A DNA stretch of 64,000 nt, taken from positions 1-64,000 of IMG/VR virus record IMGVR_UViG_3300035703_000010; one strand, given 5' to 3'. This document shows positions 6,823 through 47,175 of this stretch, piece after piece (position 1 is the stretch's first letter; the number at the start of each line of letters is the position of its first letter). Both the position numbers and the translations under genes were made by a program. Origin of the DNA: a virus. The notes under the pieces are model-generated. The model did no database searches, was not told the origin of the DNA, and was given only the letters and a program-made list of their open reading frames with translations.

Positions 6823-6875
6823 GAAAGATTACTCCTGCTGTTATAAAAGCTATTAAATGACAAGAGTAAATATTG

Positions 6876-28892: not shown

Positions 28893-29194
28893 GATATCAT
28901 CCCATCTTCTTTTTCTTTTTCAAAAGGTACAATGACTTTGTTTGCAATTAATAACATAGCCTCTCTAGCGTTTTTTACATCTTTTACCATTGATATAACG
29001 ACTGGATCATCGAATAATACAGGAGATTTTAGATGCCTAGATACGTCTTGATAAGATTTATCTATAATGTCTAAAGATTCTTCTATTTGCGACCCTATCT
29101 CATCTATTTGCTCTACTAACTTTAACGATTTTTTTATCATCGTTAGTAGCGAAAACAATGTAATGAGATTTGTTATTAGTAAAAGATATATCAT
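28889..29194 (-). CDS. Small membrane-anchored helical protein
   Basis: A 101-residue protein with one N-terminal transmembrane helix (residues 2-19) followed by a probable coiled coil (22-55) and a second helix ending KNAREAMLLIANKVIVPFEKE. Function unknown. Both ends overlap neighbours by four bases (glycosyltransferase upstream, sigma gene downstream), so it is translated as part of the chain that joins the glycan genes to the late tail genes. Confidence 0.6.
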   Translation of the reverse strand: MIYLLLITNLITLFSLLTMIKKSLKLVEQIDEIGSQIEESLDIIDKSYQDVSRHLKSPVLFDDPVVISMVKDVKNAREAMLLIANKVIVPFEKEKEDGMIS

Positions 29195-30351
29195 GTTAAA
29201 TATTTCGAAAGTTTTTCATCATAAATCTTTGAAATTTGAGAATGGCTATACAGCTCAATTATTTTTTTTGAACCTTGTTCAGCCCATTCTTTTGGCGCAT
29301 TTGGAGCGCTTTTAAATTTTAAGATTTTTTTCTTAAAATCTTTTTCAACGGCTTCTGCCCATTTTGCATTTTTTACAAATATCTTTTCATCGACTCTACT
29401 TTGGTGTATTTGCTTAAGTTCATAATCTACATTTATGAACTTAGTATGATTCATAAAGTCCATATGTCCAGACCACCCAGTAGCGATGACAGGAAGACCA
29501 GATGCAGCTGCTTCTAGAAGAGGTAATCCATATCCTTCTCCTCTAGTTAAAGAAACTAAAGCTTTTATCTTTGGATGTTTATAAAGTGCAGATACGTCTT
29601 CATCGTTCATATCTCCATGAAGCAAATAAAATTTTGGAAATTGAGTTTTTCTTACTTCTTTAAGAAGAGCTTCTAAGTTTCTTAAAACAATATTTTTGTC
29701 TATCTTCGTATTTCTGCCTGCGTTTGTTTTTATTACTATTCCAACATCTTCATCTTTAGAAAATGTTTCACAAATCCACTTAATGGTAAAAAGTAAGTTT
29801 TTTCTATCATTATATGGATTGTTTCCGGTCATTTGTCCAAACAACAAAAAGTTAAATGAAGTCTTGATATTCGACAAGTCTATTTCTTTTTTAGACGTTA
29901 AAATTTCTTCTGGAAATGATTCAGGTATTATGTACGATGGTGTTTGTAACTCTGCTGAGTTTTGCAAACTTTGCAATGAATGTTTAGAAGGAACAACTAT
30001 GCAAGACATTTTATTGCAGTTTGAAACCCAAGATGGATTTGCTATATCCGTTTCAACTGCTGCAGTAATTCCAATGTTTGTTTTGCACAGATTTGGATCC
30101 CACTCATTCGGTAGTTGTAGCTGGATTGAAACGTCTGCTCTATAATCAGGATTAACTGTTCTTTCCATTATTTTTGAAATAAGACCATTGTCTTTATTTC
30201 TATCTAAAATCCATGGCGTGTCTCCCCATGGAGTTAATAAAAACTTAACATCTATATCATTTCTAGACAACAACCATTTTGCTACTTGTCTACTATGAAC
30301 GCCATATCCAGATTGAGTTAAAGCAGGCCCTCTAAAAATTACTTTTTTCAT
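29191..30351 (-). CDS. Glycosyltransferase, GT-B fold (GT4-like)
   Basis: A 386-residue glycosyltransferase. It begins RGPALTQSGYGVHSRQVAKWL, the acceptor-side N-terminal motif of GT4-type enzymes. The C-terminal donor site has RGEGYGLPLLEAAASGLPVIATGWSGH (about residues 270-296), the usual EGxGLPxLEAxAxGxPVI signature. The nucleotide-sugar donor and acceptor cannot be read from sequence. It is the glycan gene nearest the late sigma and tail genes, with only a three-base gap to the next glycosyltransferase upstream. Confidence 0.85.
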   Translation of the reverse strand: MKKVIFRGPALTQSGYGVHSRQVAKWLLSRNDIDVKFLLTPWGDTPWILDRNKDNGLISKIMERTVNPDYRADVSIQLQLPNEWDPNLCKTNIGITAAVETDIANPSWVSNCNKMSCIVVPSKHSLQSLQNSAELQTPSYIIPESFPEEILTSKKEIDLSNIKTSFNFLLFGQMTGNNPYNDRKNLLFTIKWICETFSKDEDVGIVIKTNAGRNTKIDKNIVLRNLEALLKEVRKTQFPKFYLLHGDMNDEDVSALYKHPKIKALVSLTRGEGYGLPLLEAAASGLPVIATGWSGHMDFMNHTKFINVDYELKQIHQSRVDEKIFVKNAKWAEAVEKDFKKKILKFKSAPNAPKEWAEQGSKKIIELYSHSQISKIYDEKLSKYLT

Positions 30352-30354
30352 TTT

Positions 30355-31599
30355 TCAAACCTCTGTAAGATTCCAGCTTTTGTATTTTTCGCTCCAGCTT
30401 TCGCATAAATCCGTCAAAGTTTCATCCCATTGTAAGATGACATTTTCGATATTGTAATCTTTTTGTGCATGTTCAAATGCTCTTTGACCAATTGATTTTC
30501 TTTTTTCAGGACCCCATTCATACATCTTCATAAACGCGTTTGTTAAAGATTCATGCGTGACATAATCTTCATAAATGTAAGGAACTAATTGATTTCCTAC
30601 AAGAGAGCTTGCATCAGGAGTTAGTGCAATTCCATATTGCTCACCAGTTTCATGATCTTCAACTTGTCGAGTCAAACCACCAGTTTTTATTGCTATAATT
30701 GGTTTTCCACACATCATTGCTTCTAATGTTGATAACCCAAATCCTTCATTACAGCTACGGTTTACAACCGTGTCGCAAGCGTTGTATAACTTGTTCATGT
30801 CTTTAAATTCTATTCTATCTTTTGAAAATACTACATGATCTCTTAGTCCCAACATTTCTACGACATGAAATAAATTTGGTCCTTCAGGATCTAACGGTTC
30901 AGTGTGCATTATTAATGTTGCTTTTGTATGACCGTGCTTTTCTCTTAATTGGTCAATGAACTTTTTCCAAGAAACGAGTATATCTGATGGCATTTTTCTA
31001 CGAGCATTTCTTGAAACGAATAACGCAGTAAAATGATCAACTTTTTCTTTTCCTAACAATGAAGACTTATATTTTTTTTGTTCTTCTTCAGGAAGAGGAT
31101 GATAGATTTCTTTAGGAATTGCATGAGGAATATAATTCGTTTTTTCAGGAAATCTTGAATGTACCATTTCATATGTTGGCCAATTAATACAATTTATTAA
31201 ATCGGTAGATTCATACAAAACTTTATTAAACTCTGGCCAAGGATAGTTATCCCATAGATGGTTATATGCTATTGGGCACACTTGATGAATTTCATCTTCC
31301 ATTTCCCAAACCCAAATAAAAAATCTTGGATCTGTAAAAAGCAATAAAACGTCGGGTTTTTCTGTAGCTAAAACCTGACGTAACATATTTCTATCTCCAA
31401 ATCCATTAGTGGGTTTGATTATAAAATCGTCGTTAACTACGACAGTTCTATAATCTTCATGTTTAACAGCTCCTCCAAAACACTTAAACTTCCATTTTCC
31501 AGTTGCGATTAATCCGTGAATTAACCACCTAGCTTGTGTACCTACGCCGCTTGAACTTAACGGATGGTCTGAAAGCATTAATACTGTTTTTTTCTGCAT
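30355..31599 (-). CDS. Glycosyltransferase, GT-B fold (GT4-like)
   Basis: A 414-residue glycosyltransferase. The N-terminal domain starts MLSDHPLSSSGVGTQARWL; the donor-binding domain has CNEGFGLSTLEAMMCGKPIIAIKTGG (about residues 283-308). Also present is RNARRKMPSDIL, matching the R-x-x-x-K/R loop typical of the family. Donor and acceptor are unknown. It is separated from the nuclease gene by about 38 bases. Confidence 0.85.
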   Translation of the reverse strand: MQKKTVLMLSDHPLSSSGVGTQARWLIHGLIATGKWKFKCFGGAVKHEDYRTVVVNDDFIIKPTNGFGDRNMLRQVLATEKPDVLLLFTDPRFFIWVWEMEDEIHQVCPIAYNHLWDNYPWPEFNKVLYESTDLINCINWPTYEMVHSRFPEKTNYIPHAIPKEIYHPLPEEEQKKYKSSLLGKEKVDHFTALFVSRNARRKMPSDILVSWKKFIDQLREKHGHTKATLIMHTEPLDPEGPNLFHVVEMLGLRDHVVFSKDRIEFKDMNKLYNACDTVVNRSCNEGFGLSTLEAMMCGKPIIAIKTGGLTRQVEDHETGEQYGIALTPDASSLVGNQLVPYIYEDYVTHESLTNAFMKMYEWGPEKRKSIGQRAFEHAQKDYNIENVILQWDETLTDLCESWSEKYKSWNLTEV

Positions 31600-31637
31600 G
31601 TCGTTATATTACTAACTTTTGAAAAATTTGTAATATT

Positions 31638-32456
31638 TTAAGTGCAGTGTTCACTATTTTTAAATTCACACCACGTACAAGCATCTCTATTCTTTAGAGC
31701 GATACCTCTTTTTACTGAGGTTATCATATTGCTAACAACTTTTAAAGATCGTTTAATAGGAACTTCTCCAAGCGAAACCGAGAACAATTCGCAATGTTCG
31801 CCTGGCTTCGCAGACTTTTTTAACAACACGAATCCACAACGTACATCTTTAACTGGGACATTGGGATGTTTTTGACACCAATAGTTTTTATAAAGCGCCA
31901 ACTGCGCCTTGACCATATCATCGGATCGTTTTTCACGAAACCAACCACGGGCGGTTGTCTTCCAGTCTAGGATCCAGTAAATAGTCTCTCCTCGCTTACC
32001 CTTAGCTTTAATGACACCGTCAATAAACCCCTTGAAAGCATGCGGATGATTCTCTACGGCTTCGTAGAGCTGATGTTCTGCGTCAACGACTTCCCATTCT
32101 GGAAAAGTATCGTCTAAAAACTTTGGAACTTCCGATAAAATAATTTCAGCTTCAACTTTAGCTTTAGATAATGACTGTTTACTAAAGTCTTGATTTCCTT
32201 CATGCTGTGCCCATGCTTTTTCCATGTGCTCAAAAGCAATTTCAAATTTCATTTCTCTAGTCAATAGATAATGTTCGCATGAAGCATGTACTGCAGTTCC
32301 AAATTCAAGAACAGGAGATGGTTTCGAAAGGTCAATTTTTTTGATATGGATAAGATTGTGTCTATACGAACACTCTTTCCATAGCTTAATTTCTGAAAAT
32401 GAAACATGAGGTTTACCAGTAGGTAATACCTCAAAAGGGGGTGTTACTTCTTGCAT
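31638..32456 (-). CDS. RecB/Cas4-like PD-(D/E)XK nuclease with Fe-S cysteines
   Basis: A 272-residue nuclease. Seen: SFSEIKLWKECSYRHNL near the start (Cys29), FGTAVHASCEHYL, the catalytic acid in FKGFIDGVI, then ILDWKTT as the DxK motif and an AQLALYKNYW-like helix. The C-terminus has Cys260, Cys263 and Cys271. One early and three late Cys is the Fe-S arrangement of Cas4/AddB-type nucleases. Such enzymes process DNA ends in recombination, replication or host DNA breakdown. It is the only DNA enzyme inside the glycan cluster. Its start codon lies in the loop of a strong hairpin. Confidence 0.85.
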   Translation of the reverse strand: MQEVTPPFEVLPTGKPHVSFSEIKLWKECSYRHNLIHIKKIDLSKPSPVLEFGTAVHASCEHYLLTREMKFEIAFEHMEKAWAQHEGNQDFSKQSLSKAKVEAEIILSEVPKFLDDTFPEWEVVDAEHQLYEAVENHPHAFKGFIDGVIKAKGKRGETIYWILDWKTTARGWFREKRSDDMVKAQLALYKNYWCQKHPNVPVKDVRCGFVLLKKSAKPGEHCELFSVSLGEVPIKRSLKVVSNMITSVKRGIALKNRDACTWCEFKNSEHCT

Positions 32457-32474
32457 TTAACGATAGTAACACCC
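32439..32474 (-). promoter_or_regulatory. Hairpin enclosing the nuclease start codon (candidate translational operator)
   Basis: On the minus strand GGGTGTTACT (32474-32465) pairs perfectly with AGTAACACCC (32448-32439) across a 16-base loop that contains the ATG (32456-32454). The Shine-Dalgarno-like AAGAGGG (32478-32472) runs into the 5' arm. Folding would hide ribosome access, as in T4 autoregulated mRNAs such as gene 43. Pairing is seen; regulation is inferred. Confidence 0.5.
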
Positions 32475-32488
32475 TCTTAATTGTTAGT

Positions 32489-33454
32489 TCAAACTTTAGG
32501 TTTCTTTGAGATTGCTCTACCTACTAGCTTTTCCCAATCTCTTTGTGGACGAACTTCCATGTTTTTGTGCCAAGCGCCATTCATTACTTTTGGATCTACT
32601 CCAAGCGTCTTTGCAATGCTAATCAAAGCGTTAATATCTTTAACAAAGCAGCTTCCTCCGAAACCGAAAGCAGGTTCTCCTGTATCATCTGCAGGCATTG
32701 GACCAGGAACTTTCCAATGCGAATTTCCTAGTCGCTTGTCTAAGGTCGCGTACTCAATTACTTTATCATAATCGATATTTGCTCCTGAAGAGTCTAAAGC
32801 TTGACAAATTTGATAAAACTCGTTTGCAAGAGCGACTTTGACAGCAAGATGAATGTTGGTAACATATTTTACCATTTCTGCTGTTGTTGATGAAGTTTTG
32901 ATAATTGGAACATTTGGAAATGCTGATTCAAAAACTTGCTTAACTTTGTTAATCCAAGGACGAGGGCCTCCAAGGATAATTCTGTTTTGATTTCGCATGT
33001 CATCGACTGCATTTGCTTCTGTTAAAAATTCTGGATTAAAAATCACTTTCAATCCAGTTTCAGCAAACTTTTTATTCCACATTTCTACTGAGCCTGGTGG
33101 AACGGTTGATTTGACGACTGCAATTCTTTCGCCTGGTACTGCGGCTAATTCTTTTAAAGCACCTTCGACGATGCTAAGATCGGCAGAGCCATCCTCAAAC
33201 ATAGGTGTAGGAAGGCACACAAAATAAACTTTAGAAAAGCCCGGTGTTCCACCTTCCTCATTATCTCCGATTAATTCTGCAATAGACCCAGGATAACCAG
33301 CAGCTGAATCTCCATGAGAAGGTAAAGATCCTTTAGCATATTTGCCTGCTTTGTCATAAGCATATACATCAAATCCGCGTTCTGAGAAAACAGTCGTAAG
33401 AGATCCTCCTACGAACCCTTGACCAATTACAGCGATAGATTTATTTTTTTTCAT
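32489..33454 (-). CDS. UDP-glucose 6-dehydrogenase-like, C-terminally short
   Basis: A 321-residue member of the UDP-glucose/GDP-mannose dehydrogenase family, which oxidises the nucleotide sugar to a uronic acid using two NAD+. Seen: the Rossmann motif VIGQGFVGGSL (9-19), STVPPGS, FNPEFLTEANAVDD, and the active-site FGGSCFVKD with Cys269. The protein ends about 50 residues after that Cys, whereas usual enzymes run 390-450 with a C-terminal UDP-binding domain. That domain is missing here, so either it is supplied otherwise, the substrate differs, or the enzyme is altered. One sampled 60-base line (32641) is 48% G+C, well above its neighbours, which hints at separate acquisition. Confidence 0.82.
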   Translation of the reverse strand: MKKNKSIAVIGQGFVGGSLTTVFSERGFDVYAYDKAGKYAKGSLPSHGDSAAGYPGSIAELIGDNEEGGTPGFSKVYFVCLPTPMFEDGSADLSIVEGALKELAAVPGERIAVVKSTVPPGSVEMWNKKFAETGLKVIFNPEFLTEANAVDDMRNQNRIILGGPRPWINKVKQVFESAFPNVPIIKTSSTTAEMVKYVTNIHLAVKVALANEFYQICQALDSSGANIDYDKVIEYATLDKRLGNSHWKVPGPMPADDTGEPAFGFGGSCFVKDINALISIAKTLGVDPKVMNGAWHKNMEVRPQRDWEKLVGRAISKKPKV

Positions 33455-33486
33455 AGATTTTTATATAATCTAAAAAATGCTAAAGT

Positions 33487-34389
33487 TCATTTGATGACGT
33501 TGATAATGGATTTCCATCCTTCATCATTTCTGATAAACTCAACTGAAGAATTTATTTTTTCTTGAGTTTCTTCAACGTTATCAAGAGTTTTTGTTATTAA
33601 ATCCAAGGACTCTTCAAAACTTTTATAAGTCAAAATTGAAGAAATATTATTTGTGTAATTCACACATTCTTCCTCATAATCCCTAATGCTTATGCATCCT
33701 CGTGAAGCAGCTTCTATGTCTTTAACCCATAACGCGTTTGCTGATATTTTATTCGAATTTACAACCCATTCTACTTGTTCGTTGTGTATAAAAATTTTTA
33801 TTTTAGATAAATTTTGTAAAAAGCCGTTATAAGATGATTGTTGCAAAATCGTAACGTTAATATTTTTTGATTTTAAAAAATCAAAAAACTTTTTTCTATA
33901 AGGGTGAATTTGTCCACAAAATCCAACGTCAATTTCTCTATCCTTCCAAGCAGGATCAGAAGAACAATACTCTGGTAAAACCCACATTTTTACAAACGTA
34001 GATTTCATACCTTTATCGATGATAAAGTTACTCCACCATTTTGAAGTATTTAAAAACGATTTAACATTTAGTTCATTATAAATTTTTTGATACGATCCTT
34101 TGTAACGAGAATCATCTTTAAAAGATTCCCAAGGATCTTGTTCATATACGAATATTTCTTGATTGTTAAGATACTTTTTTACTAAAGAAATATTATTGTA
34201 CAGAGTTCTTAGTTTTAAACATGATAAAAACTTATCAGCATGAGGCAAACTTTTTCCTGAGGCTACGTCGGAAATAGTACTAAAACTAAGATTAGTTTCA
34301 TCTTGCAACGTTTTAAATAACTGATGTTGAAAACAATTGCTTTTTACATATTGGTAATCATCAATAATTACGTGAAGATTTAATTTCAT
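33487..34389 (-). CDS. Putative glycosyltransferase, CgeB/GT-B-like
   Basis: A 300-residue protein with the single-half GT-B look of CgeB-like proteins. It has EIDVGFCGQIHPYRKKFFDFLKS (residues about 156-178), a start of the C-terminal Rossmann half, followed by SANALWVKDIEAASRGCISIRD, matching the donor-site pattern in which a protein is marked and replaced. No classical EGxGLP motif is present. Its start lies inside the previous gene, overlapping by 29 bases. Glycosyltransferase function is likely by family and context but not certain. Confidence 0.62.
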   Translation of the reverse strand: MKLNLHVIIDDYQYVKSNCFQHQLFKTLQDETNLSFSTISDVASGKSLPHADKFLSCLKLRTLYNNISLVKKYLNNQEIFVYEQDPWESFKDDSRYKGSYQKIYNELNVKSFLNTSKWWSNFIIDKGMKSTFVKMWVLPEYCSSDPAWKDREIDVGFCGQIHPYRKKFFDFLKSKNINVTILQQSSYNGFLQNLSKIKIFIHNEQVEWVVNSNKISANALWVKDIEAASRGCISIRDYEEECVNYTNNISSILTYKSFEESLDLITKTLDNVEETQEKINSSVEFIRNDEGWKSIINVIK

Positions 34390-35089
34390 TTAGTATTAAT
34401 TCCTTTGAATAATTTTTAATAGAAAAATTAAATGCATTTTGAAAATCATCATCAGAATAGTCTACATCATTATATTTTGATGAAAGATTAAATCCTAATA
34501 AACATAAACCTCTTATTTTATCGAAGTTATTTTTTTGCCAAGCATCATAAACTTTGTTGAAAATATCTGACTGATTTTTTTTGCCTCTATGAAACCCATA
34601 GTGAAATGCTTGTTTATCTGAAGGAAACCAACAATGCATTCCAGCGGGTATTAATTCTTTAGGAAGTTCATTTCCTCTAATAACAATGTTATGTCCAGAA
34701 TCTGCTCGATCTGGATATAACTTGTTTACTTTTGTTGATACGTTCACTGTATTTCTTAAACATGTGAGTCCGTATATTAGGCTATCGGTCATGTAATCAT
34801 GAAGCCATGCTTGAACTCCAGTTAGCTTATTATTAATTTTAAAAAGTTCAGCAAATGTTTTTATAACTAAATTGTGAGACAATATTGTGTCTGCATCTAC
34901 TTTTAAAAAAAGATCATAATCTTTTTTTGATTTATTCCATTCTAAAAAAAGCTTTTCATGTGCTTCTTTTTCAGGCAAGTTAGAAACAACATAATGAAAT
35001 GTTTGAACATCTATTTGAGAAGCTATCGATTCCTTGCATTTCTCAAATTCATTTTCTCCACACTCCATCGTTCCTACAAAAACTTTCAT
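34361..35089 (-). CDS. GT2-like glycosyltransferase
   Basis: A 242-residue GT-A type protein. It has KVFVGTMECGENEFEKCKESI at the start and LFLKVDADTILS around residues 62-73, where DAD is the metal and nucleotide-binding motif. The region AGMHCWFPSDKQAFHYGFHRG gives the later acceptor side with conserved His residues. Donor unknown. Confidence 0.7.
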   Translation of the reverse strand: MKVFVGTMECGENEFEKCKESIASQIDVQTFHYVVSNLPEKEAHEKLFLEWNKSKKDYDLFLKVDADTILSHNLVIKTFAELFKINNKLTGVQAWLHDYMTDSLIYGLTCLRNTVNVSTKVNKLYPDRADSGHNIVIRGNELPKELIPAGMHCWFPSDKQAFHYGFHRGKKNQSDIFNKVYDAWQKNNFDKIRGLCLLGFNLSSKYNDVDYSDDDFQNAFNFSIKNYSKELILNEIKSSRNY

Positions 35090-35107
35090 TTATTTCTCCA
35101 AATAAAA

Positions 35108-35599
35108 TTATAAAATTTTGTACATACAAATTTGATCAAAAAATTTTTCATCTCTGTATAAAGAAGAAATTAATTTACCTTCTTCTATAAACCCAAGATT
35201 TTTATATACTCTTTGACCTATTAGATTGTATTCTGCTGTCGTTAAACTTACTCTATGAAGTCCGATCTCTTTACAATAATCTAACATTAACGACCACATG
35301 AATTTTGCATATCCTTTACCTCTAAAATTTTTATGAATATCTGCTCCTAATATGCAATTTCTATTAGTAAAATCTATATTGTAAAATTTAGTAAATCCTA
35401 CTCTTTCAGAATTTATTTCAAATATTTTTCTTTTTTGAGAATTATCTTTTGATATTTTTTCCCACCAAGATAAATGTTGATTTAAAGTTATAGGATTTGG
35501 ATTGGTTAAATTTTTTAAAACTTCTGGATCATTGTGTAATTCAACTAACCATTCATGGTCGCCATGATTAATCTCTCTTAATATCATGTTTTGTTGCAT
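35108..35599 (-). CDS. GNAT acetyltransferase, PseH-like
   Basis: A 163-residue GNAT enzyme with the acetyl-CoA loop motif RGKGYA (near residue 97) after LGADIHKNF, and the C-terminal pattern NLIGQRVYKNLGFIEEGKL typical of PseH/RimJ-type sugar or protein N-acetyltransferases. It follows the aminotransferase by three bases and the dehydratase before that, the same order as pseB-pseC-pseH. In that pathway it would acetylate the 4-amino group of a UDP-4-amino-4,6-dideoxy sugar. Context makes the sugar assignment more likely than protein acetylation. Confidence 0.78.
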   Translation of the reverse strand: MQQNMILREINHGDHEWLVELHNDPEVLKNLTNPNPITLNQHLSWWEKISKDNSQKRKIFEINSERVGFTKFYNIDFTNRNCILGADIHKNFRGKGYAKFMWSLMLDYCKEIGLHRVSLTTAEYNLIGQRVYKNLGFIEEGKLISSLYRDEKFFDQICMYKIL

Positions 35600-35602
35600 A
35601 TG

Positions 35603-36742
35603 TCATTTTTTAGATAATTTTATTGTTAGATTTGCGATGTAAGTTATGTCATCTTCATTTAACCACCATCCGCATGGCAAAGAAAATTGATAAGAAGAAA
35701 ATTCTCTAACTCCAGGTAAATTAGATTTAAATTTTTTAAAAGTAGTGTAGTCATCGTTAGGAACGTGTACAACACCAGCTTGAATTCCTTCTTTATTTAA
35801 CTTTTCTAATAGTTCATCTCTAGAAATTTTTTTATTTTTTAATTTCATGGTATAAACCCACGACGATGATTCAGAAAGACTAGGCTTCTTTGCAGGAATT
35901 ACATCTTTGCTTTTACTAAATAGTTTATCATATAAAGCAGAATTTTGTTTATGTTTATTGATAATGAAATCGATATAAGGAAGTTGTGATAATCCAACTG
36001 CTGCAGTTAGATTATTCATATTAAATTTGTATCCAGCTTCTAATATGTCGACGTCCCATTGTTGACCCTTCCAATTTCCTTTTGAGTCTTTTGCAAAATC
36101 TCTATCTAATCCAAACCATTTTAAAGATTTTGACTTTTTATAATCATTTTCGTCTAAACAAACTAATGCCCCACCATCTCCAGTTGTTATGTGTTTAATT
36201 GCTTGAAAACTATAACAAGTAAAATCTGCGTAATTATGAATTTGCGAATTGTTATAACGAGATCCAAACGCATGAGCTGCATCTAAAATTAGTTTTATAT
36301 TTTTTTCTTTGCAAATTTTACTTAGTTCTAAAAGTTCAGGTGGAGTTCCTGCCCAAGCTACAGCCATAACTGCTTTTGTTTTGTCAGTAATTTTTTTTGC
36401 AACATCGGCTGGATCAATCATTCCATGATCTGGGTTTATATCCGCCCAAATTATATTTGCACCAATAGTATGAATTGGAGTATTAGTAGCTACGCAAGTC
36501 ATTGGAGTCGTGATGACTTCATCACCTTGTTGAACTCCAGCTAATTTTAAAGCTAGAGTTAAAGCAGAAGTGCAACTATTAACTAATATTAGTTTATTAG
36601 TTTCAAATATTTCTTGCATTTTTTGAGTTAGCTCAGTGACTTGAATTCCTTCATTAATGAATCCTGATTCTAATACATCTTTAATTTTTTCTAAAGATTC
36701 TTTTACTGGTATATGAACTTTAAAAAGAGGATAGCTTTTCAT
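35603..36742 (-). CDS. DegT/DnrJ/EryC1 sugar aminotransferase, PseC-like
   Basis: A 379-residue PLP-dependent aminotransferase. Seen: VNSCTSALTLALKLAGVQQGDEVITTPMT (PLP phosphate-binding region), LILDAAHAFGSRY with the Asp contacting the PLP nitrogen, and SFQAIKHITTGDGGALVC where the Lys forms the Schiff base. Length fits the family. Its likely role is transfer of an amino group to C4 of the keto sugar made by the adjacent dehydratase. Only three bases separate the genes on each side. Confidence 0.88.
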   Translation of the reverse strand: MKSYPLFKVHIPVKESLEKIKDVLESGFINEGIQVTELTQKMQEIFETNKLILVNSCTSALTLALKLAGVQQGDEVITTPMTCVATNTPIHTIGANIIWADINPDHGMIDPADVAKKITDKTKAVMAVAWAGTPPELLELSKICKEKNIKLILDAAHAFGSRYNNSQIHNYADFTCYSFQAIKHITTGDGGALVCLDENDYKKSKSLKWFGLDRDFAKDSKGNWKGQQWDVDILEAGYKFNMNNLTAAVGLSQLPYIDFIINKHKQNSALYDKLFSKSKDVIPAKKPSLSESSSWVYTMKLKNKKISRDELLEKLNKEGIQAGVVHVPNDDYTTFKKFKSNLPGVREFSSYQFSLPCGWWLNEDDITYIANLTIKLSKK

Positions 36743-36745
36743 TTT

Positions 36746-37768: not shown

Positions 37769-37800
37769 TTTTATATTGTATTTTTTTACAAAAACGTTGT

Positions 37801-38631: not shown

Positions 38632-39757
38632 AAACACCTTTTAGAAATTTTTCCCAAACTTCCCAGTAATAATCATTAAAAATTTTAAGATTCATTTCTT
38701 CCATCCCAAATTTTAAGCTCCTTTCATAACCTGGATCTTTTAAAATTTTTTCTATTGCTTCTGCAGCTTCATTTGGAGTTTCAACAATAACTGAGTTAAT
38801 TTTGTCTACTAAATAGTTTGTAGAATTAGATGAAAGAACATATTTTTTTGTTGTAATAATAGGAATTCCTGAGTTTAAACAATAATAAAAAACTCCGCCG
38901 CCCCAATCAGTTTGTTTGAAGTGTACTGCTGCTTTTAAATTTTTAGTAATTTTATAAGATTGCCTTGGAGAAATTGTCGAAAATTTACCAGTTACGCCAT
39001 TTTTTTCAGAAAATCTTATATCTGCGCCGGCTGACCGAATGTTTCCTCCAAAATTTTTTACTTCTTCAACGTTTTTTTCTTTTAAAATTAAATTCATTTT
39101 AACAAAAAACTTGTAGTCATCTGGTTGCCTGACTTCAAAATTATGATTAAATGATGCAAATTGTAATGAATCTACAACATTAAACTCGCTATCTATGTCT
39201 AACAATTTAGTTTCAAAATCTACGCAAAAAACATTAACGTTATTAACGTTCGTATGTTTAGATTCATAGTTAGCTGGAATAAACTTAGCTACGTTTTTTG
39301 GTCTGTGATTTCCAGGATCATGGTTCCATGCATTCATTGTTGATGAAACCCATTTTGCGTTTGGAAAATATTCGTTAGCTACCTTGAAGTAATGTAATAA
39401 ACTTTCTTCGCCTCCTCTTAAAGTATGAAAAATTTCTATTCCGGGATTTTTTTCATTTAAATCTATTATTTCGCAAGATATGTCTTCATCATATAAGCAA
39501 CATGATTTAAATGTTTTCAGAAAAAAATCTTCTCCAAAAAATGCATTGTTTTCCTGGAATGGATAAAGATCAAGATTTCTTTTGCTTTTATCAATTGAAG
39601 ATTTGCACAATAAGATAGGCCATGTAGCTATTTTTTCCCATTTAAGTCCTAAAGTGCCAGGTTTTGGTACAAAAACTTTATGGCCTAACTTTGAATAATG
39701 ATAGATCATAGATGTTAATCCACTTCTATCATCAGTTGGAAAAATAAAAATATTCAT
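38624..39757 (-). CDS. Putative GT-B glycosyltransferase
   Basis: A 377-residue protein with a GT-B-like layout: MNIFIFPTDDRSGLTSMIYHYSKLGHKVFVP at the N-terminus and a C-terminal half with AAVHFKQTDWGGGVFYYCLNSGIPIITTKKYV (around 280-312), where a Gly-rich loop precedes a G-x-P-I-I strand typical of the donor site. Divergent from standard GT4 enzymes: no E-x7-E motif is obvious. Function as a glycosyltransferase is likely from context. Confidence 0.6.
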   Translation of the reverse strand: MNIFIFPTDDRSGLTSMIYHYSKLGHKVFVPKPGTLGLKWEKIATWPILLCKSSIDKSKRNLDLYPFQENNAFFGEDFFLKTFKSCCLYDEDISCEIIDLNEKNPGIEIFHTLRGGEESLLHYFKVANEYFPNAKWVSSTMNAWNHDPGNHRPKNVAKFIPANYESKHTNVNNVNVFCVDFETKLLDIDSEFNVVDSLQFASFNHNFEVRQPDDYKFFVKMNLILKEKNVEEVKNFGGNIRSAGADIRFSEKNGVTGKFSTISPRQSYKITKNLKAAVHFKQTDWGGGVFYYCLNSGIPIITTKKYVLSSNSTNYLVDKINSVIVETPNEAAEAIEKILKDPGYERSLKFGMEEMNLKIFNDYYWEVWEKFLKGVYE

Positions 39758-39775
39758 ATTATTTCTTTTATTAGA

Positions 39776-40687
39776 TTAAAAATCAAATTCTGGTCCTTCT
39801 AACAAAACCTTGCTTTGAGGATATTTTTTTTGATCTCCATTTTCAGTCTGATAAGTCCATCCAATAGGATTGCATACATCAACAAAACTTAAAGGAGCGA
39901 AAGAATCTTGTTTTTTATAATACTCTTCTGGAGAAATTTTTTCATAATATTCTCCAGAAGAAGAAGGAGCATCTAAATAATACCCATATCGTTTATTGCC
40001 TCGTATGAAAGCGTATCCTCCTCTTGGGTCGTTCCATACAGGGGCAAATAAAGGAACCCAACTGCAATAATTCAATTGCAAATTAGGCAATTTTGATTTT
40101 AAATGAGAATCGTACCAGTCTTCTGATCTACCCCAAAATTCTTGAGTTTGTGGCCAATCAACTGGATAATTTCCAAACTTTTCAAAAATTTCTTTTTTAA
40201 AGAAACCCATAGTCGGAAAGTGGTTATCTAACGGCAAATAGTATTTGTAGTTTTTATTTTTTATTACTAAATTTTTATTAAATTTATTTTGAATAGTGGA
40301 TCTTCTAACCGCGTTAACTTCCAGAGAAAGCATTTCTTTAGAAGAATAGAAATCTTCTACAACTTTTTCTAAAACTTCTTTATTGCCAATAAATTGTAAA
40401 TCATCTTGAAGAAACAAGATTACATCATGCTTTGCATTTTCTATGATAATGTTTTTTGCAATATATTCATCATTAACCCAATTTCTTTCTTCAGGACTTC
40501 TAGAAAATAGTTGATGAATAACCCCGCTTTTTTTCTGCTCTTCAAGATATTCTTTAAGACCATGTTCTATGCTACAATTGTCAACAGCAATAACTTGATG
40601 ATCATTAGAAATTTCTTTTATGCTATTAAAAAGAGATTTTGTGTATTTTAAACGATTAAACGTTGTTATTCCAATTGTTATGTTCAC
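39776..40687 (-). CDS. GT2-family glycosyltransferase
   Basis: A 303-residue GT-A enzyme. It begins MNITIGITTFNRLKYTKSLFNSI, followed by VIAVDNCSIEHG and VILFLQDDLQFIG (around residues 90-102), the nucleotide and metal-binding segment of GT2. A later segment WGRSEDWYDSHLKSK resembles the catalytic W-x-x-E-D block. Donor and acceptor unknown. Confidence 0.78.
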   Translation of the reverse strand: MNITIGITTFNRLKYTKSLFNSIKEISNDHQVIAVDNCSIEHGLKEYLEEQKKSGVIHQLFSRSPEERNWVNDEYIAKNIIIENAKHDVILFLQDDLQFIGNKEVLEKVVEDFYSSKEMLSLEVNAVRRSTIQNKFNKNLVIKNKNYKYYLPLDNHFPTMGFFKKEIFEKFGNYPVDWPQTQEFWGRSEDWYDSHLKSKLPNLQLNYCSWVPLFAPVWNDPRGGYAFIRGNKRYGYYLDAPSSSGEYYEKISPEEYYKKQDSFAPLSFVDVCNPIGWTYQTENGDQKKYPQSKVLLEGPEFDF

Positions 40688-40696
40688 TTTTTAACC

Positions 40697-41584
40697 TCAG
40701 CTTAAAATAATCTTCCAAAACGATTCCATAGATTCTTTCCACTTTGGAGGAGTTTTAGAATTTTTTAAAAAATTTCTTTTTGATAATATCTGTTCAATTT
40801 CAAAGAAATTTTTATAAACATGTTGTTTACCTACAAATTCAACGGCGCCGCCTCCTTCAGCATGAACGTATGTTGGAAGTCCAACTGCAATTGATTCTAA
40901 AACGTGATTAGGTCCAGGATCATGTCTAGACGCGCTAACATAAACGTCATATTTACATAATTCATCAGCTAAAGCTTTTCCGTATAGCGGAGGTATCGTT
41001 TTTGAATTAGAAAAAGTTCCTCTATCTCTTCCTATATACGTGAATGATATTTTATCGTTTTTAGTACTTAAGTAATCTAAAAATTCGTAAACATCAAAAC
41101 CTTTTAAGTAGTTATTAGACCAATGATGAGTTACAATTTTTAAAACATCATCATTCTTTTCTTGATAATTTGTATTAAAAAAATCTTCATCAACTCCGTT
41201 ATATAAAACGGATTGATTTTTGCAAATCCACCCTTTGTTATTAAAGTAATTTTTCATCCAATTACTTACAAAAATAGTTTTTGTATTAATCGCGCTACAT
41301 TGTAATAACAATTGATCCATATGTTCTGTGTTTTTTCTTGCGTCACATTCATTAATCCTTTGAATGACGGGTATTTTTTTTCTTGATATAAATTTTGCAG
41401 CATCATTTATATCGAATGATTTATCTCTTCGAGGATCGACCAAAAAAATTAGATCAGTATCATCAGTTAACTTATCAGTTAATTCAACTCCATCTGGAAC
41501 AGATGAATAAACTGCTTTAACAAAATTATTGCCACCGCCGTACGGTCCAGAAATAGGAGCTCTATTAATTGCAATTTTAACCAT
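40697..41584 (-). CDS. Glycosyltransferase, GT-B fold (GT4-like)
   Basis: A 295-residue enzyme. Seen: APISGPYGGGNNFVKAVY (Gly-rich loop at the acceptor side), TIFVSNWMKNYFNNKGW, VLYNGVDEDFFNTNY, and the donor site ASRHDPGPNHVLESIAVGLPTYVHAEGG (around 218-245), in which E-x-x-A-x-G-x-P is conserved. Slightly short for a GT4. Substrates unknown. Confidence 0.8.
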   Translation of the reverse strand: MVKIAINRAPISGPYGGGNNFVKAVYSSVPDGVELTDKLTDDTDLIFLVDPRRDKSFDINDAAKFISRKKIPVIQRINECDARKNTEHMDQLLLQCSAINTKTIFVSNWMKNYFNNKGWICKNQSVLYNGVDEDFFNTNYQEKNDDVLKIVTHHWSNNYLKGFDVYEFLDYLSTKNDKISFTYIGRDRGTFSNSKTIPPLYGKALADELCKYDVYVSASRHDPGPNHVLESIAVGLPTYVHAEGGGAVEFVGKQHVYKNFFEIEQILSKRNFLKNSKTPPKWKESMESFWKIILS

Positions 41585-41603
41585 TCATAAAATTTTATAA
41601 ATT

Positions 41604-42506
41604 TTATAATGATTGTATCAAAGTTCTATAAGGATCATATCCTTTAGGAAGTTTCCATTCTTCTACGTCTGGTATGCTAGGAATTGCAAAAGTTACATCG
41701 TCTGAAATTGACGATTGAGGTAAAATTTGAGAAGCAATTCCTATGTTTCTAGAAACCACTGGAATGTTTAAAAGACCGCATTCAATAAGCGATTGTGGAC
41801 CTCCTTCGCATCTAGCAGTTACAGGATATAAATCTAATGTTTGATATAGCTCATTAATCGTTTTTTGATCTGGTCTATCGAAATATGTAAATGAAATATT
41901 CGACGCAGTTAATCGATTGATAATATACTGCCTTCTCCATCCTGCTAAAACTACATGTAAATTTTGTTTTTCTTTTGACCATTTTTCTATTGCGTCAGCT
42001 AGAAGATCTGGTCCTTTTTCTAGTTTTGGAGAAATTAAGTCTTTACCTTCTGTATCTCTTTGAAATGATCCAATTAAAAATCCATTTTCAGGTAAATTAT
42101 GTTTTTTTCTTAGACTTTGTTTTTCTTCTGTTTGATACCAAATATTTTGATTTGCCCAATACTTTAATAAGTGAATAGGCTTAGAAGTAAACTTTCTAAT
42201 AAAGTCTGACGTTTGTTCATTGTAAACATGATATGCTGTAGTAATTTTATCTCTTAACAAAAAATTATGAACGTCAATGTCTTTAAACTTTTCTGGAACT
42301 ATATGATGTACTGTCGTTAGAACTTTTTTATTTTTTAATAGTCCTTTAAAAAACATTTGTTCCCAACACCAATCAGCAAGTAGCCAAACAACATCAGCGT
42401 CTTTGGGATTTAACACGCTGATATCTTTGTTGTCTTCATTCCACTCTTTTACAAAACGGTCAACAATCCAGTCTTCTGATGGCGGGAGGACATACACTTT
42501 ATTCAT
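41604..42506 (-). CDS. Glycosyltransferase, GT-B fold (GT4-like)
   Basis: A 300-residue enzyme. Features are TAYHVYNEQTSDFIRKF, GSFQRDTEGKDLISPKLEKGPDLLADAIE, and the donor-side ARCEGGPQSLIECGLLNIPVVSRNIGIA (around residues 233-260), a variant of the EGxxxxxxE motif. It begins four bases inside the previous gene (ATGA), the last of five such overlaps in a row. Substrates unknown. Confidence 0.8.
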   Translation of the reverse strand: MNKVYVLPPSEDWIVDRFVKEWNEDNKDISVLNPKDADVVWLLADWCWEQMFFKGLLKNKKVLTTVHHIVPEKFKDIDVHNFLLRDKITTAYHVYNEQTSDFIRKFTSKPIHLLKYWANQNIWYQTEEKQSLRKKHNLPENGFLIGSFQRDTEGKDLISPKLEKGPDLLADAIEKWSKEKQNLHVVLAGWRRQYIINRLTASNISFTYFDRPDQKTINELYQTLDLYPVTARCEGGPQSLIECGLLNIPVVSRNIGIASQILPQSSISDDVTFAIPSIPDVEEWKLPKGYDPYRTLIQSL

Positions 42507-43438
42507 GAATGTAAAACGCTTTCTAAAAACGAAAGATAATCATTTAATGTTCGTTGCATTGAAACATCAAAACAGTGAGATAAATCATTCTTATGGGGTA
42601 AACGATTCTTTATTTGTGCTACGTCAATTTTAGGAGGATTATCGTAGTCAGTTAGTTCAAAGTTATATTCTTTTTCTTCTTTTAAAATAACTCCATACCC
42701 CTGAACTAGTTCTTTTGTTCCTCCATGTTCAGAACAAATAACTGGTGTTCCTTGTGATAAGGATTCTACTACAGTATTTGGACAATGGTCTAACCATGCA
42801 AGATGTAACATCCAATTAGCTGCAGAAAATATTTCTAAACAAACTTCGTGGGGTTGAGATCCTGCATAAAAAACGTGAGGATCAGCGACTTTTATTGGAT
42901 TAGATCCTAAAACTATAAGAGCAGCTGAAGAATAAAAATTTCTTAAATGTTTATATAACTCTATGTTTTGTAACAAACGTTTTTGAGGATGCCAATTTGC
43001 AGAACATACGAATAACATTTCGTATTGTTGTCTAATTTGTTCTAATACAGGTATTTGAAATTTTTTAATTTCTGGTGCATTAATACCGTTTCGAATTATT
43101 TCGAATTTTTTTGGATATCCCCACCACTTCGTAGTCATGCCTTTATCAAATGCTGACTGCCATATTACAGCATCAGCTGATTGATAAAGCTTTTTTATAG
43201 AAGAGTTTTTTGTTTCAAACTCTTCAGGAGAAAACCAAATTCCATCAAGCCTTTGAACAACTTTTTTTGCTAATGGTCTGCCAGTAGGTTCAATAAAAAC
43301 TATTGAAATTTCAGCTTTTCTACCATCATATAATTCAACTTCATGACCAGATTCTATTAACGCCATAGCTAATCTCTTTCCAAAAGAATTTGGACCAGAG
43401 TTTGAGCTCATATTAACGTTGTCAAGATGTATTTTCAT
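42503..43438 (-). CDS. Glycosyltransferase, GT-B fold (GT4-like)
   Basis: A 311-residue enzyme. Seen: MSSNSGPNSFGKRLAMALIESGHEVE (acceptor-side loop), VCSANWHPQKRLLQNIELY (R-x-x-K loop of the donor domain), and DHCPNTVVESLSQGTPVICSEHGGTKE (around 218-244), the conserved E-x-x-x-G-x-P-V-I donor site. Start and stop overlap the neighbours by four bases. Substrates unknown. Confidence 0.84.
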   Translation of the reverse strand: MKIHLDNVNMSSNSGPNSFGKRLAMALIESGHEVELYDGRKAEISIVFIEPTGRPLAKKVVQRLDGIWFSPEEFETKNSSIKKLYQSADAVIWQSAFDKGMTTKWWGYPKKFEIIRNGINAPEIKKFQIPVLEQIRQQYEMLFVCSANWHPQKRLLQNIELYKHLRNFYSSAALIVLGSNPIKVADPHVFYAGSQPHEVCLEIFSAANWMLHLAWLDHCPNTVVESLSQGTPVICSEHGGTKELVQGYGVILKEEKEYNFELTDYDNPPKIDVAQIKNRLPHKNDLSHCFDVSMQRTLNDYLSFLESVLHS

Positions 43439-43800
43439 GATCTCTTTTTTACTTCAGCAATAAAAGGAATTGCAAATGGAGTCTTATTAAACATCATTGC
43501 CATCAAAGCAATTTCTTTTGTTTCTATGTTAGAAAGACTAGCTCTTTGCGTAAATATATTTGGATCTAACTCTTGATTTCCATTTATAGTTACAGCATCA
43601 TAATACATCTGTGCTATAAAATTTACAGATTCATTAGTCAAAGGAACTGAAGATTCTTTAATGATTTCAGATAAAGAAAAGAAAATATCTTGATAAATTT
43701 CTGAACAAATTTGTGGTGTTAGTTTTTCACCTTTTCTTTTAAATAAGCGTTCAGATAAAAGCTTAGAAATAGATTCATGAAGAGCTTCGCCTTGCATCAT
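43435..43800 (-). CDS. Small helical protein of unknown function inside glycan operon
   Basis: A 121-residue, probably all-helical protein with no domain I recognise. It is overlapped by four bases at both ends by glycosyltransferase genes, so it is translated in the same coupled chain. It may be a regulator, scaffold or accessory subunit of the enzymes on either side. A second ATG follows the first directly. Confidence 0.55.
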   Translation of the reverse strand: MMQGEALHESISKLLSERLFKRKGEKLTPQICSEIYQDIFFSLSEIIKESSVPLTNESVNFIAQMYYDAVTINGNQELDPNIFTQRASLSNIETKEIALMAMMFNKTPFAIPFIAEVKKRS

Positions 43801-44531
43801 TTTACATACCCTCTGTTCCTTAAAAAAACAGCTTCATCCCTTTGAAATATAGCATCATTTGTTTGATATGTTTCAGGAACATCATTAATTGTGTAATGAT
43901 ACATTACTCTAGGTAAGAAAAATCTTTTTTTAGAATTATGAAGAGCTGGTAAATAAATTGCTTGATCTCCTGCTCTTCTGATATAACTTCCATCTTCTCC
44001 TCTATAGTTTTCATCTTTTACTTCATTTAGTAATTTTTTTCTAAATGTTTTTAAATGACTAGAAACCCAAGCATGTTTATACGGATCAACTTCTTGTGAC
44101 ATTGGACAACTTATGTTTTTGTCACTAAATCCCCAACGATGAGCTGTCCATAAAGTATCACATGAAGTTTGAACATAAGCAGAATTGATTATCATCAAAC
44201 AATCAGAATCTGTTAGCCAGTCATCTGCATCAATTCTACAGACGATGTCTTCATCATCACACATTGATAACCCTTGTAATACATTTGCAACTTCCCATTT
44301 TTTTTCAGAGTTCCAAATATTAATGATTCTATTTTGATAAGTTTTTCCTAAGATATTTTTAAAATCATCACAAATTTGAAGAGATTTTTTTGAATGATTT
44401 TCTGAAGACACATCATCGATTAAAATAATTTTCCAATTATCATATGATTGACCGCAAATAGAATGAAGCATTCTGGGTAATGTTTCAGACGCATTATACA
44501 TTGGAGAAATAAACACAAATCTATTATTCAT
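43797..44531 (-). CDS. GT2-family glycosyltransferase
   Basis: A 244-residue GT-A enzyme. It begins FVFISPMYNASETLPRMLHSICGQSYDNWKIILIDDVSSE, the textbook GT2 N-terminus, and has VCRIDADDWLTDSD around residues 93-106, where DADD is the metal/nucleotide site. A later RRAGDQAIYLP segment fits the acceptor side. Overlaps both neighbours by four bases. Substrates unknown. Confidence 0.87.
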   Translation of the reverse strand: MNNRFVFISPMYNASETLPRMLHSICGQSYDNWKIILIDDVSSENHSKKSLQICDDFKNILGKTYQNRIINIWNSEKKWEVANVLQGLSMCDDEDIVCRIDADDWLTDSDCLMIINSAYVQTSCDTLWTAHRWGFSDKNISCPMSQEVDPYKHAWVSSHLKTFRKKLLNEVKDENYRGEDGSYIRRAGDQAIYLPALHNSKKRFFLPRVMYHYTINDVPETYQTNDAIFQRDEAVFLRNRGYVK

Positions 44532-45238
44532 TTCATCATCTCATTTGCTTTTTTATAAGATTCATGCGTACCAGCATCTATCCAACCAGTTTCAACATTT
44601 GTGAAAGTTCCAATTCTGTTTTTTACCATGAAAGAGTTTATGTCGCTTACTTCATATTCTCCTCTTGCTGATGGTTTTAAACTTTTAATAACATTAAAAG
44701 CTTCTGGAGTGTAGCAATATACTCCGACTATAGCATCATTGCAAGTTGGATGTTTAGGTTTTTCAACTACATCGGCTATTTTTCCATTTTGATAAACTGG
44801 AATTCCGAATCTTTCTGGATCATGTACTTTTTTAGTAAACAACGCATAGTCATCGTTTGAATCGCTAAATTTTTTTATAGAGTTTGTTATTTTTGAGTAG
44901 TTTTCAAAAATATTGTCTCCTAAGATTGTTACAAATTTTTGATTTCCGACGAATCCTTCGCATAATTGAATTGCTGAAGCAATTCCGTTAGCTACTTCTT
45001 GTATGCAGTAATAAATTGAGCATCCATATTCAGTTCCGGAACCAAGCAACATGGCGAATTGTCCAATGTGCTCTTGTCTAGTAATAATGCAAATTTCCTT
45101 GATACCAGATTCTACTAAAAGATTTATAGAATGAATTATCATAGGCTTTTCGCCTACTGGAAGTAGACATTTACTGGTAAATTTTGTTAAAGGCTGAAGT
45201 CGACTGCTAATCCCTCCAGTTAGAATAATTCCTTTCAT
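44528..45238 (-). CDS. Sugar-1-phosphate nucleotidyltransferase, RmlA-like
   Basis: A 236-residue nucleotidyltransferase that makes an NDP-sugar from NTP and sugar-1-phosphate. Seen: LTGGISSRLQPLTKFTSKCL with the G-G-x-x-x-R loop, LLPVGEKPMI, ILGDNIFEN (metal-binding Asp), and GWIDAGTHESYKKANEM near the end, the form typical of glucose-1-phosphate thymidylyltransferases. It is shorter than RmlA (about 290). No RmlB, C or D gene is seen nearby, so the product may feed the local transferases directly. Confidence 0.84.
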   Translation of the reverse strand: MKGIILTGGISSRLQPLTKFTSKCLLPVGEKPMIIHSINLLVESGIKEICIITRQEHIGQFAMLLGSGTEYGCSIYYCIQEVANGIASAIQLCEGFVGNQKFVTILGDNIFENYSKITNSIKKFSDSNDDYALFTKKVHDPERFGIPVYQNGKIADVVEKPKHPTCNDAIVGVYCYTPEAFNVIKSLKPSARGEYEVSDINSFMVKNRIGTFTNVETGWIDAGTHESYKKANEMMK

Positions 45239-47175
45239 TTTTTATTCCTGTTTAACATGATTTTTGGTTGCGCTTTTTCAACTGTTAAATGAGGAGTTGT
45301 AGTTTTGCCATCCCATTTTTGATGCCAAATCCATCCGCCTAATTTTTCTTTAAGCTCTTTAGCTCTTTTTTCAATCATTTCGTCAGTAACTTCTTGCCAA
45401 GGATGATCAAACATCATATTTGAAGCTGAAGTATCTTCGTATTTTTTACCAGATAATGATTCCCAATGTTTTGTCCAATAATCTTTATATAATTTGATCT
45501 TTCTTTCAAGATTATACCAGCTATAATGAAAAACGCCTGGTAAATTATTAACGACATTATTAAACCAAGCATTATAGTCTTTTAATGCTTTTTGATTTCC
45601 TAATAATGCAGATCTTCTTATTTGATCTGCTTCTGCAGTATAGAATGTAACATGATTGATTCTATTTCCAGTTTTAGAATCAATCATGTCGCAACCATCT
45701 GTACCTTCAGCTGCATACAAATCTCCGTTAGAGTCATATCTTCTAAGTTCAACAGGAATGCCATGAGTTATGTTTTGCTTATTTCTACTTAACCTCCACT
45801 TCCAAGGCATGATATCAAGTCGAACCTTTTCAGGACCACCCCAATACTCAATGACTGGTAATGATATTAAATCAACATTTGCTGGAAACTTTGAACACAA
45901 ATCAATTATTTTTTCTGCATCTGACTCATGAACAATTTCATCTGAATCCATTTGCCAACAGAAAGTTGATTTACACATGGATCTTGCTTCTGCTTTTTGC
46001 ATTCCATCAAACACTGCAAATCGTGGATGGTTCCAATCTCTATGAATTTGTTTTATGACAATCTTGTCATTTTTTTCAGATAATTCTTTTAGTTTTTCCC
46101 ATGTGCCGTCAGAAGAACCTCCATCTACAACACATACTTCTTCGCAAAATTGAAGCATAGATTCGATGCATTCTACAAAAGGATAGTCTTGTTTAATGCA
46201 ATTATATACAGTTGTGTATCCACTTATAGATGGCTTATAATCCATCATCTTCTTTATTCCATTCCAAAAAATTGTTGGAGCTGTAAAAAGATATTCTTCA
46301 ATTTCTTTGATGTTTTCTGTATTAAACCATTCTTCATCTTTGTGTTGAACGTTATCATTAAGATGAAGCTTACATCCTAACAATTTTGCTTCTATAACCA
46401 TTCTTGGACACGTATCTTTTCCTTCAGGAAGATATACAAATCCTTCTGCTTTCGAAAACCTATTTAGCATTTCATCATATGAAATATTCCAAACTACGTC
46501 ATGCTCTTTTTTATTTTCTTGGCACCAAAGTTTCGCATTTTTAGCTCCTTTTACCCAAGAATCTGATCCAAGTACTATCCAAGATTTTCTAGGCGTAGAA
46601 GATGAATTAGATTGTTCTCTAAGAAGCTTGATCATTCCTAGAGTATTTTTTGAAAATACGCTGGATAAAACAATGTTCGTTTTTTCTAATAAAAATGGGA
46701 ATAAATTTAGATACCACTCTTTTTGAGCTTCTGACATCCACCATAGTCCTCTAGAACCATAGTAGAAAGCTGATATCAATTTTCCATTAAGTTGTTCTTG
46801 ACAATCGCAATCTTTTCCTGATGCTGATTTATGTTTTTCTGGGGATCTATATCGACAGTATTTATAGTCGTATTCTAATATGCTATATTTTAAATTTCCT
46901 ATGATGGTAGGAATTAATTCTGGATTCAATTGAGCAAAATTTCCAAATATCCAGAATTTGTCGACGCCTTGTTTAAGAAGATCTAAACTTAAATCTTTTG
47001 ATAAAATTTTTGTGTACGGAAGAGGACATTCATCTATTAAAGCTTGAGTTGTTAATTCTGCTCCTCCGACATAATGCTCTGCAAAAAGATCAGCAACAAA
47101 AATTATCTTTGCATCTTGTGGGATAGATAAATCTATCATTTTTGTGCTAAAAATACTTTCATTAAAGTTATTCAA
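45235..47175 (-). CDS. Two-domain glycosyltransferase (GT-B-like plus GT2)
   Basis: A 646-residue fusion and the first gene after the late promoter. Residues about 22-310 look like a GT-B half enzyme (IIFVADLFAEHYVGGAELT, then WIVLGSDSWVKGAKNAKLW and CPRMVIEAKLLGCKLHLND near 256-274). From about 317 a complete GT2 domain follows: VVDGGSSDGTWEKL (349-362) and WQMDSDEIVH (407-416). The start is TTG at 47175 with GAGGG four bases upstream; the first ATG is 12 codons later and lacks such a site. Two transfers on one chain could be done by one protein. Donors unknown. Confidence 0.8.
   Translation of the reverse strand: MNNFNESIFSTKMIDLSIPQDAKIIFVADLFAEHYVGGAELTTQALIDECPLPYTKILSKDLSLDLLKQGVDKFWIFGNFAQLNPELIPTIIGNLKYSILEYDYKYCRYRSPEKHKSASGKDCDCQEQLNGKLISAFYYGSRGLWWMSEAQKEWYLNLFPFLLEKTNIVLSSVFSKNTLGMIKLLREQSNSSSTPRKSWIVLGSDSWVKGAKNAKLWCQENKKEHDVVWNISYDEMLNRFSKAEGFVYLPEGKDTCPRMVIEAKLLGCKLHLNDNVQHKDEEWFNTENIKEIEEYLFTAPTIFWNGIKKMMDYKPSISGYTTVYNCIKQDYPFVECIESMLQFCEEVCVVDGGSSDGTWEKLKELSEKNDKIVIKQIHRDWNHPRFAVFDGMQKAEARSMCKSTFCWQMDSDEIVHESDAEKIIDLCSKFPANVDLISLPVIEYWGGPEKVRLDIMPWKWRLSRNKQNITHGIPVELRRYDSNGDLYAAEGTDGCDMIDSKTGNRINHVTFYTAEADQIRRSALLGNQKALKDYNAWFNNVVNNLPGVFHYSWYNLERKIKLYKDYWTKHWESLSGKKYEDTSASNMMFDHPWQEVTDEMIEKRAKELKEKLGGWIWHQKWDGKTTTPHLTVEKAQPKIMLNRNKK

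Follow-up and report, generated by a model that had tools for sequence, protein, structure and literature searches.

A glycosyltransferase island with fixed ends and an exchangeable middle in large aquatic phages, possibly acting on virion proteins

The stretch of DNA analysed here (the window) covers the opening 64 kb of the 204,651-base IMG/VR virus record IMGVR_UViG_3300035703_000010, and its positions 29191-47175 are occupied by 19 genes, lettered A to S in order of position, that are rich in glycosyltransferases and nucleotide-sugar enzymes. By comparing this island with those of related phages, we found that its end genes are fixed and its middle is hypervariable, a layout visible by comparison alone and absent from the initial annotation of the window. 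On balance, we think that the island is probably a late phage locus whose enzymes assemble a glycan on the virion proteins themselves, in the cytoplasm, with the fibres as candidate acceptors.

A fixed framework around an exchangeable cassette

The 40 islands compared consist of the stretch from S to the gp55-like late sigma factor gene in 39 relatives and in the window. Of 50 records searched for gp55, 40 gave a homologue, in each case 8.8-28.9 kb beyond the downstream end of S and oriented like it. With the exception of locus L075, all islands (39/40) have S as their first gene and C-B-A as their last, beside gp55. The interior between these ends holds 6-28 genes (median 16) belonging to 246 clusters, none of which is universal. 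Taken together, the islands contain 1026 open reading frames (ORFs), 1009 of them on one strand, in 329 clusters, 210 of which occur in a single record; clusters are connected components at 30% identity over 70% of the length, and the counts depend on this threshold. Methyltransferases, epimerases, dehydratases, aminotransferases, CMP-sugar synthetases and NeuB are encoded in the cassettes of the relatives.

The divergence of the frame genes S, C, B and A follows that of gp55 (Spearman coefficients of 0.65-0.82). Among the cassette genes, that of M (0.00), P (0.03), O (0.32) and H (0.33) does not, Q (0.44) and D (0.55) are intermediate, and N (0.73) and I (0.82) do co-diverge with gp55. The GC content of the cassette lies 1.7 points below that of the frame (p 1.6e-5). 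The cassette of the window is very similar in content to that of L047 (Jaccard index 0.88), although the two S proteins are only 72% identical, and shares much less with those of L001 and L002 (0.25-0.29), although S is 77-78% identical there. Fixed ends, the lack of any universal interior gene and a content unlinked to phage relatedness therefore define a framework-plus-cassette locus. In layout only, this recalls the Wzx/Wzy-type surface polysaccharide loci, which also have conserved ends and an exchangeable glycosyltransferase middle.

We tentatively suggest that this is a serotype-like locus, in which the virions would carry exchangeable, lineage-specific glycans, the cassette would recombine between the fixed ends and S, as a phage-only bifunctional protein glycosyltransferase, would be the anchor. 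If so, the surfaces of phage particles would diversify as bacterial capsules do.

Enzyme content of the island

All 19 genes lie on the minus strand. Family searches revealed eight clear glycosyltransferases. Five are of the GT4/GT-B type: the framework genes A (29191-30351; PF00534, 1e-9) and B (30355-31599; PF00534, 3e-16), each found in 39/40 islands, as well as M (40697-41584; phrog_2170, with a profile match to O at probability 98), N (41604-42506; PF00534) and O (42503-43438; PF00534). L (39776-40687; PF00535, 2e-10) and Q (43797-44531; PF00535, 6e-17; 28/40 islands) are GT2 enzymes, and S (45235-47175) is bifunctional. A ninth, the probable GT-B enzyme E (33487-34389), is backed by its relatives: Glyco_trans_1_2 matched E alone at 0.06 and reached a best E value of 1.4e-6 in a mixed scan of family members of E, F, J and K. 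Matches of E to interferon-gamma were dismissed as chance. Three further proteins are possible glycosyltransferases, namely K (38624-39757), a GT-B candidate with a weak PDB profile match to a diacylglycerol glucosyltransferase (E 0.002), and the GT-A candidates J (37801-38637) and F (34361-35089), for which library searches returned no match and which are recognized by the short invariant motifs ESD and DAD, respectively. The initial annotation had counted about twelve glycosyltransferases; this stands as an upper count, because K is weak and F and J show only DxD/ESD-like invariants.

Five enzymes, D, G, H, I and R, belong to families that make, modify or acetylate nucleotide sugars or sugars. 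The scores of four of them (G, H, I and R) fall short of the curated equivalog cut-offs. R (44528-45238) is an RmlA-like sugar-1-phosphate nucleotidyltransferase (PF00483, 6e-47; rmlA_long under its cut-off) and D (32489-33454; 26/40 islands) a nucleotide-sugar 6-dehydrogenase (UDP-Glc/GDP-Man; PF03721, PF00984) without the C-terminal domain. The best matches of I, H and G are to PseB, PseC and PseH of the pseudaminic acid pathway: I (36746-37768) is a PseB-like UDP-GlcNAc 4,6-dehydratase (PF02719, 5e-79; PseB 271 bits against a cut-off of 408), H (35603-36742) a PseC-like DegT aminotransferase (PF01041, 1e-84; PseC 244 bits against 424) and G (35108-35599) a PseH-like GNAT N-acetyltransferase. 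Family searches of 29191-47175 detected no PseI/NeuB synthase or CMP-sugar synthetase gene, and a full Pse pathway was dropped because the block is without PseI and PseF. The three enzymes I-H-G may convert UDP-GlcNAc to a UDP-activated 4-acetamido-4,6-dideoxy sugar.

The two remaining genes are C (31638-32456; PF12705, 1e-16), a framework gene found in 39/40 islands that encodes a PD-(D/E)XK nuclease and not a sugar enzyme, and P (43435-43800), which encodes an all-helical protein of 121 amino acids inside the cassette and occurs in 21/40 islands. P was left without a function label because PDB searches by sequence and by fold, the latter with an AlphaFold2 (AF2) model of predicted local distance difference test score (pLDDT) 89, gave no match. 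It is flanked by glycosyltransferases with 4-base overlaps, and its own divergence is unlinked to that of gp55.

The enzyme S

That S joins two glycosyltransferases, as first proposed, was upheld: an N-terminal GT-B-like domain is followed by a C-terminal GT2 domain (Pfam GT2). We found homologues of S in 77 IMG/VR loci, with 38-90% identity, but a tblastn search of annotated phage records gave no match at E<=1e-5. Among 84,980 cellular genomes, S was present in two contigs of metagenome-assembled genomes (MAGs) only, both phage-like. Their flanking genes match those of the phage loci described here, and therefore the two contigs are not evidence for a bacterial origin of S. These contigs (L133 and L134) are filed under Halobacteriovorax and Pelagibacter MAGs, and look mis-binned.

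The structure of S was predicted with high confidence (AF2 pLDDT 90.7). The top PDB fold matches of the model are the peptide S-glycosyltransferases SunS and ThuS, followed by polysaccharide and teichoic-acid enzymes, and the profile matches include the flagellin glycosyltransferase GmaR. Judging from this model, the fold of S leans towards a protein acceptor. Single in-frame stops (TAA, TAG) were seen in S of L057 and in gp55 of two records, one of them the record behind L060, which may reflect recoding or sequence error.

A late gene series

The 19 ORFs run leftward without interruption. Neighbouring ORFs are spaced by -29 to +38 bases, and from S through R, Q, P and O to N each overlaps the next by 4 bases, which makes five such overlaps. 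Together the 19 are the first part of a leftward series of 32 genes (47175-10068) with no reversal. Downstream of A stand x101 (28889-29194, minus strand), a small protein in which hydrophobicity marks a single segment near the N terminus and which is found between A and gp55 in 32/40 islands, then the gp55-like late sigma factor gene (28140-28892, minus strand; phrog_234, E 1.2e-5), the fixed neighbour of the island, and then baseplate genes with matches to phrog_43, phrog_219 (a baseplate wedge gene, 20853-22688, minus strand) and phrog_20556. The initial annotation, which saw a single leftward block continuing into late sigma and baseplate genes, is borne out in both respects. A megablast search of phage records with the block gave no match.

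The series was also said to begin after an exact late octamer, and an exact copy of this motif, TATAAATA, indeed lies on the minus strand (47281-47288). It stands 106 bases ahead of the TTG start codon of S and is probably the late-type promoter of the series. The octamer is depleted in the record, with five copies against 15-17.5 expected under Markov models of order 1-4. Two of the five are intergenic, one before S and the other (8599-8606, minus strand) 119 bases before the fibre gene at 6876-8480. In the close relatives L002, L003 and L008 the octamer before S is retained at -113 to -117. The shorter TATAAAT occurs in 7/57 upstream regions against 1.1 expected. By analogy with T4, and given a gp55 homologue, we infer that the block is expressed late. 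Matches to sigma-70-type promoters in the block (82) were at the level of shuffled sequences (89.6) and were rejected as signals, and the regions upstream of the genes lacked the Bacteroidota-type promoter pattern TTTG...TAnnTTTG. Terminator-like matches in the block number 16 against 8.0 in shuffled sequences, and are mostly short and intragenic. On the other side of S, a gene on the opposite strand (47967-49166) encodes a 399-amino-acid distant relative of GroEL, which is kept in most relatives.

What may be glycosylated

The glycosyltransferases of the island are phage genes sited among virion genes, as in virion-protein glycosylation systems. As candidate acceptors, the window encodes three Ser/Thr-rich fibres on the minus strand (1665-5423, 5467-6822 and 6876-8480; S+T 27-28%). 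In 10 relatives (L036, L048, L051, L053, L054, L062, L063, L067, L070 and L076), homologues of the second and third of these genes lie immediately upstream of S on the same strand. Moreover, one intergenic octamer precedes S and the other the fibre series. All three fibre proteins contain the same kind of repeated module, GLSGSLT.L.DGTSYLIAG..ISI.S.SNG.VTISS, and the product of 6876-8480 carries HAEG repeats.

Based on these data, the locus might work as follows. D, G, H, I and R would make or modify nucleotide sugars; S, which is present in every island read but one outlier, probably starts the glycan by attaching its invariant first sugars to protein; the exchangeable enzymes of the middle would build a chain specific to the lineage; and B and A, being fixed too, would add further constant residues. 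The likely acceptors are the Ser/Thr-rich fibres, and the benefit may lie in an altered virion surface as shown to hosts or inhibitors.

Some of our results weigh against this proposal. The fibre genes of the window (1665-8480) form a separate leftward series, with three rightward genes between it and the block, and the gene upstream of S is oppositely oriented in 45/72 loci. The octamer before S is kept in close relatives only. SunS, GmaR and polysaccharide synthases share the GT2 fold, and thus the fold of S does not prove a protein acceptor. In addition, B and A are found among replication genes in RM378 and beside such genes in Mel-JY01 (gene order C, GuaB, B, A), both cultured phages, and the record of the window encodes a thymidylate-synthase-family enzyme that may be a (d)CMP hydroxymethylase (L083:6980-7981; record 160480-161481).

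The last two points lead to DNA glycosylation, an alternative already raised in the initial annotation. A dCMP hydroxymethylase would make hydroxymethylcytosine, on which S, B, A and the cassette would build a sugar chain that blocks restriction or CRISPR enzymes; we include here a division of labour in which B-A would act on DNA while S and the cassette act on protein. We regard this alternative as rather unlikely, but it gained strength from the hydroxymethylase-like enzyme, whose best PDB match is CMP 5-hydroxymethylase (at E 4e-45, thymidylate synthase reaching 9e-20), and which carries Asp at the Asn position of thymidylate synthase and is shared by 10/16 long relatives. Its gene adjoins those of dCMP deaminase and thymidine kinase, and the nuclease gene C adjoins B-A in 39/40 islands. 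Diverse glycans on 5-hydroxymethylcytosine DNA made by phage enzymes have been reported (Pyle 2024, as cited in PMC12619734). On the other hand, the hydroxymethylase-like gene was not found in 6/16 long relatives, among them records of 236, 257 and 323 kb whose islands are complete (the completeness of the records being uncertain), nor in Mel-JY01 and RM378, which have B-A. Given that phages in which the gene was not found still have B-A or an entire island, DNA glycosylation is not required for the pattern. The T4-type dNMP kinase (T4 gp1 family, PF21448) is absent from the record, in a search whose control matched once, and a search for the Tet/JBP-type dioxygenase family of MT plus 5mYOX DNA hypermodification, run without a positive control, found none. 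To our knowledge, known DNA pathways also need fewer genes than the up to 28 of a cassette. The hydroxymethylase-like gene sits between a sugar epimerase gene and the thymidine kinase gene; hydroxymethylcytosine DNA is possible.

The enzymes could also remodel the surface polysaccharide of the host during infection, for instance blocking the attachment of other phages. Jumbo cyanophages (P-SSM2 type) have large, polymorphic gene clusters for glycosyltransferases and sugar enzymes, which a comparative survey of 2021 read as capsular polysaccharide or host-surface modification (PMC7824862), and the framework-plus-cassette layout is like that of bacterial surface polysaccharide loci. Nevertheless, the families of initiating phosphoglycosyltransferases (Bac_transf), WecA-type enzymes (Glycos_transf_4) and Wzx flippases (Polysacc_synt) were absent from 17 long records in searches whose controls matched, and none of the 40 islands has an ORF with at least two predicted transmembrane segments, although export enzymes of the host could still be borrowed. 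A series shared with baseplate genes would also be late for exclusion. These results weaken the host-surface alternative offered by the initial annotation, and we consider it improbable. The same annotation had stated that flippase and polymerase genes are lacking: this held for the flippase families, while the absence of a polymerase, like that of an oligosaccharyltransferase, comes from the transmembrane count alone, these families not having been searched by name. Least probable of all, in our opinion, is that the islands are loosely selected collections of mobile sugar genes with no shared product. The 210 single-record clusters and the lower GC content of the cassette would fit such a collection, but S, B and A (median identity 0.55, 0.57 and 0.49) are conserved as much as or more than gp55 (0.46) and hold their positions in 39/40 islands, and over 100 residues of S are invariant across 39 sequences.

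Virion glycosylation, as suggested in the initial annotation, is thus best supported, because of the linkage to late and virion genes, the fibre genes upstream of S in 10 relatives, the lack of a membrane or lipid-linked step and the peptide-glycosyltransferase-like fold of S, all of which favour it indirectly.

Comparison with known systems

A close cultured counterpart is the Flavobacterium phage vB_FspM_immuto (NC_055915; host Flavobacterium sp. LMO8), where homologues of C, B and A (the last two being gp181 and gp180) keep their order and have a sugar cassette next to them. It also has a homologous aminotransferase H, gp55 and baseplate genes, and a tail spike, gp101, homologous to the fibre encoded at 6876-8480. 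Unlike the window, immuto has no match to S, and its cassette is on the other side of B-A, distant from gp55 and the baseplate genes. The moraphages, large uncultured aquatic jumbo phages of Bacteroidota, have four core groups of putative glycosyltransferases, whose role was left open (PMC12619734, 2025). From their described content, they resemble the phages studied here in combining such groups with PhoH, gp6, gp25 and sigma genes, but a framed exchangeable locus is not described for them.

The island differs from the jumbo cyanophage clusters in its fixed S and C-B-A-gp55 ends, and we read it as virion-directed. Glycosylation of virion proteins by phage glycosyltransferases is reported for mycobacteriophages (Freeman 2023, as cited in PMC12619734), with two glycosyltransferases in Maravista (PMC11256854); there, one or two enzymes act on capsid and tail tube, in contrast with the exchangeable island found here. 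The T4-type glucosylation of hydroxymethylcytosine DNA has a parallel in the hydroxymethylase-like gene of the record, but many more enzymes are present here, and islands exist also where that gene was not found. Glycosyltransferase clusters of jumbo phages are therefore already known; the layout of fixed ends and exchangeable middle tied to late genes and fibres was not found described in the searchable literature.

Another feature of the record

Outside the window, at 150309-155203 of the record (L082/L083), the gene for the DNA polymerase III alpha subunit is split, and looks fractured with a split intein. The N-terminal half with the N-part of the intein (152754-152996) is followed by a free-standing endonuclease-like ORF (152974-153951), and this by the C-part of the intein (153938-154036) with the remainder of the polymerase.

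Significance

Phage virions are commonly regarded as bare protein. That dozens of large aquatic phages share conserved, phage-only enzymes framing an exchangeable glycan cassette suggests that a whole lineage may sugar-coat its particles and swap the coats by recombination. Part of this reading is open to experiment, since immuto is a cultured relative with the C-B-A part of the locus. If the reading is true, the islands would hold many new glycosyltransferases, with S as a defined candidate for the first step, and such coats would bear on host recognition, defence and the survival of the particles.

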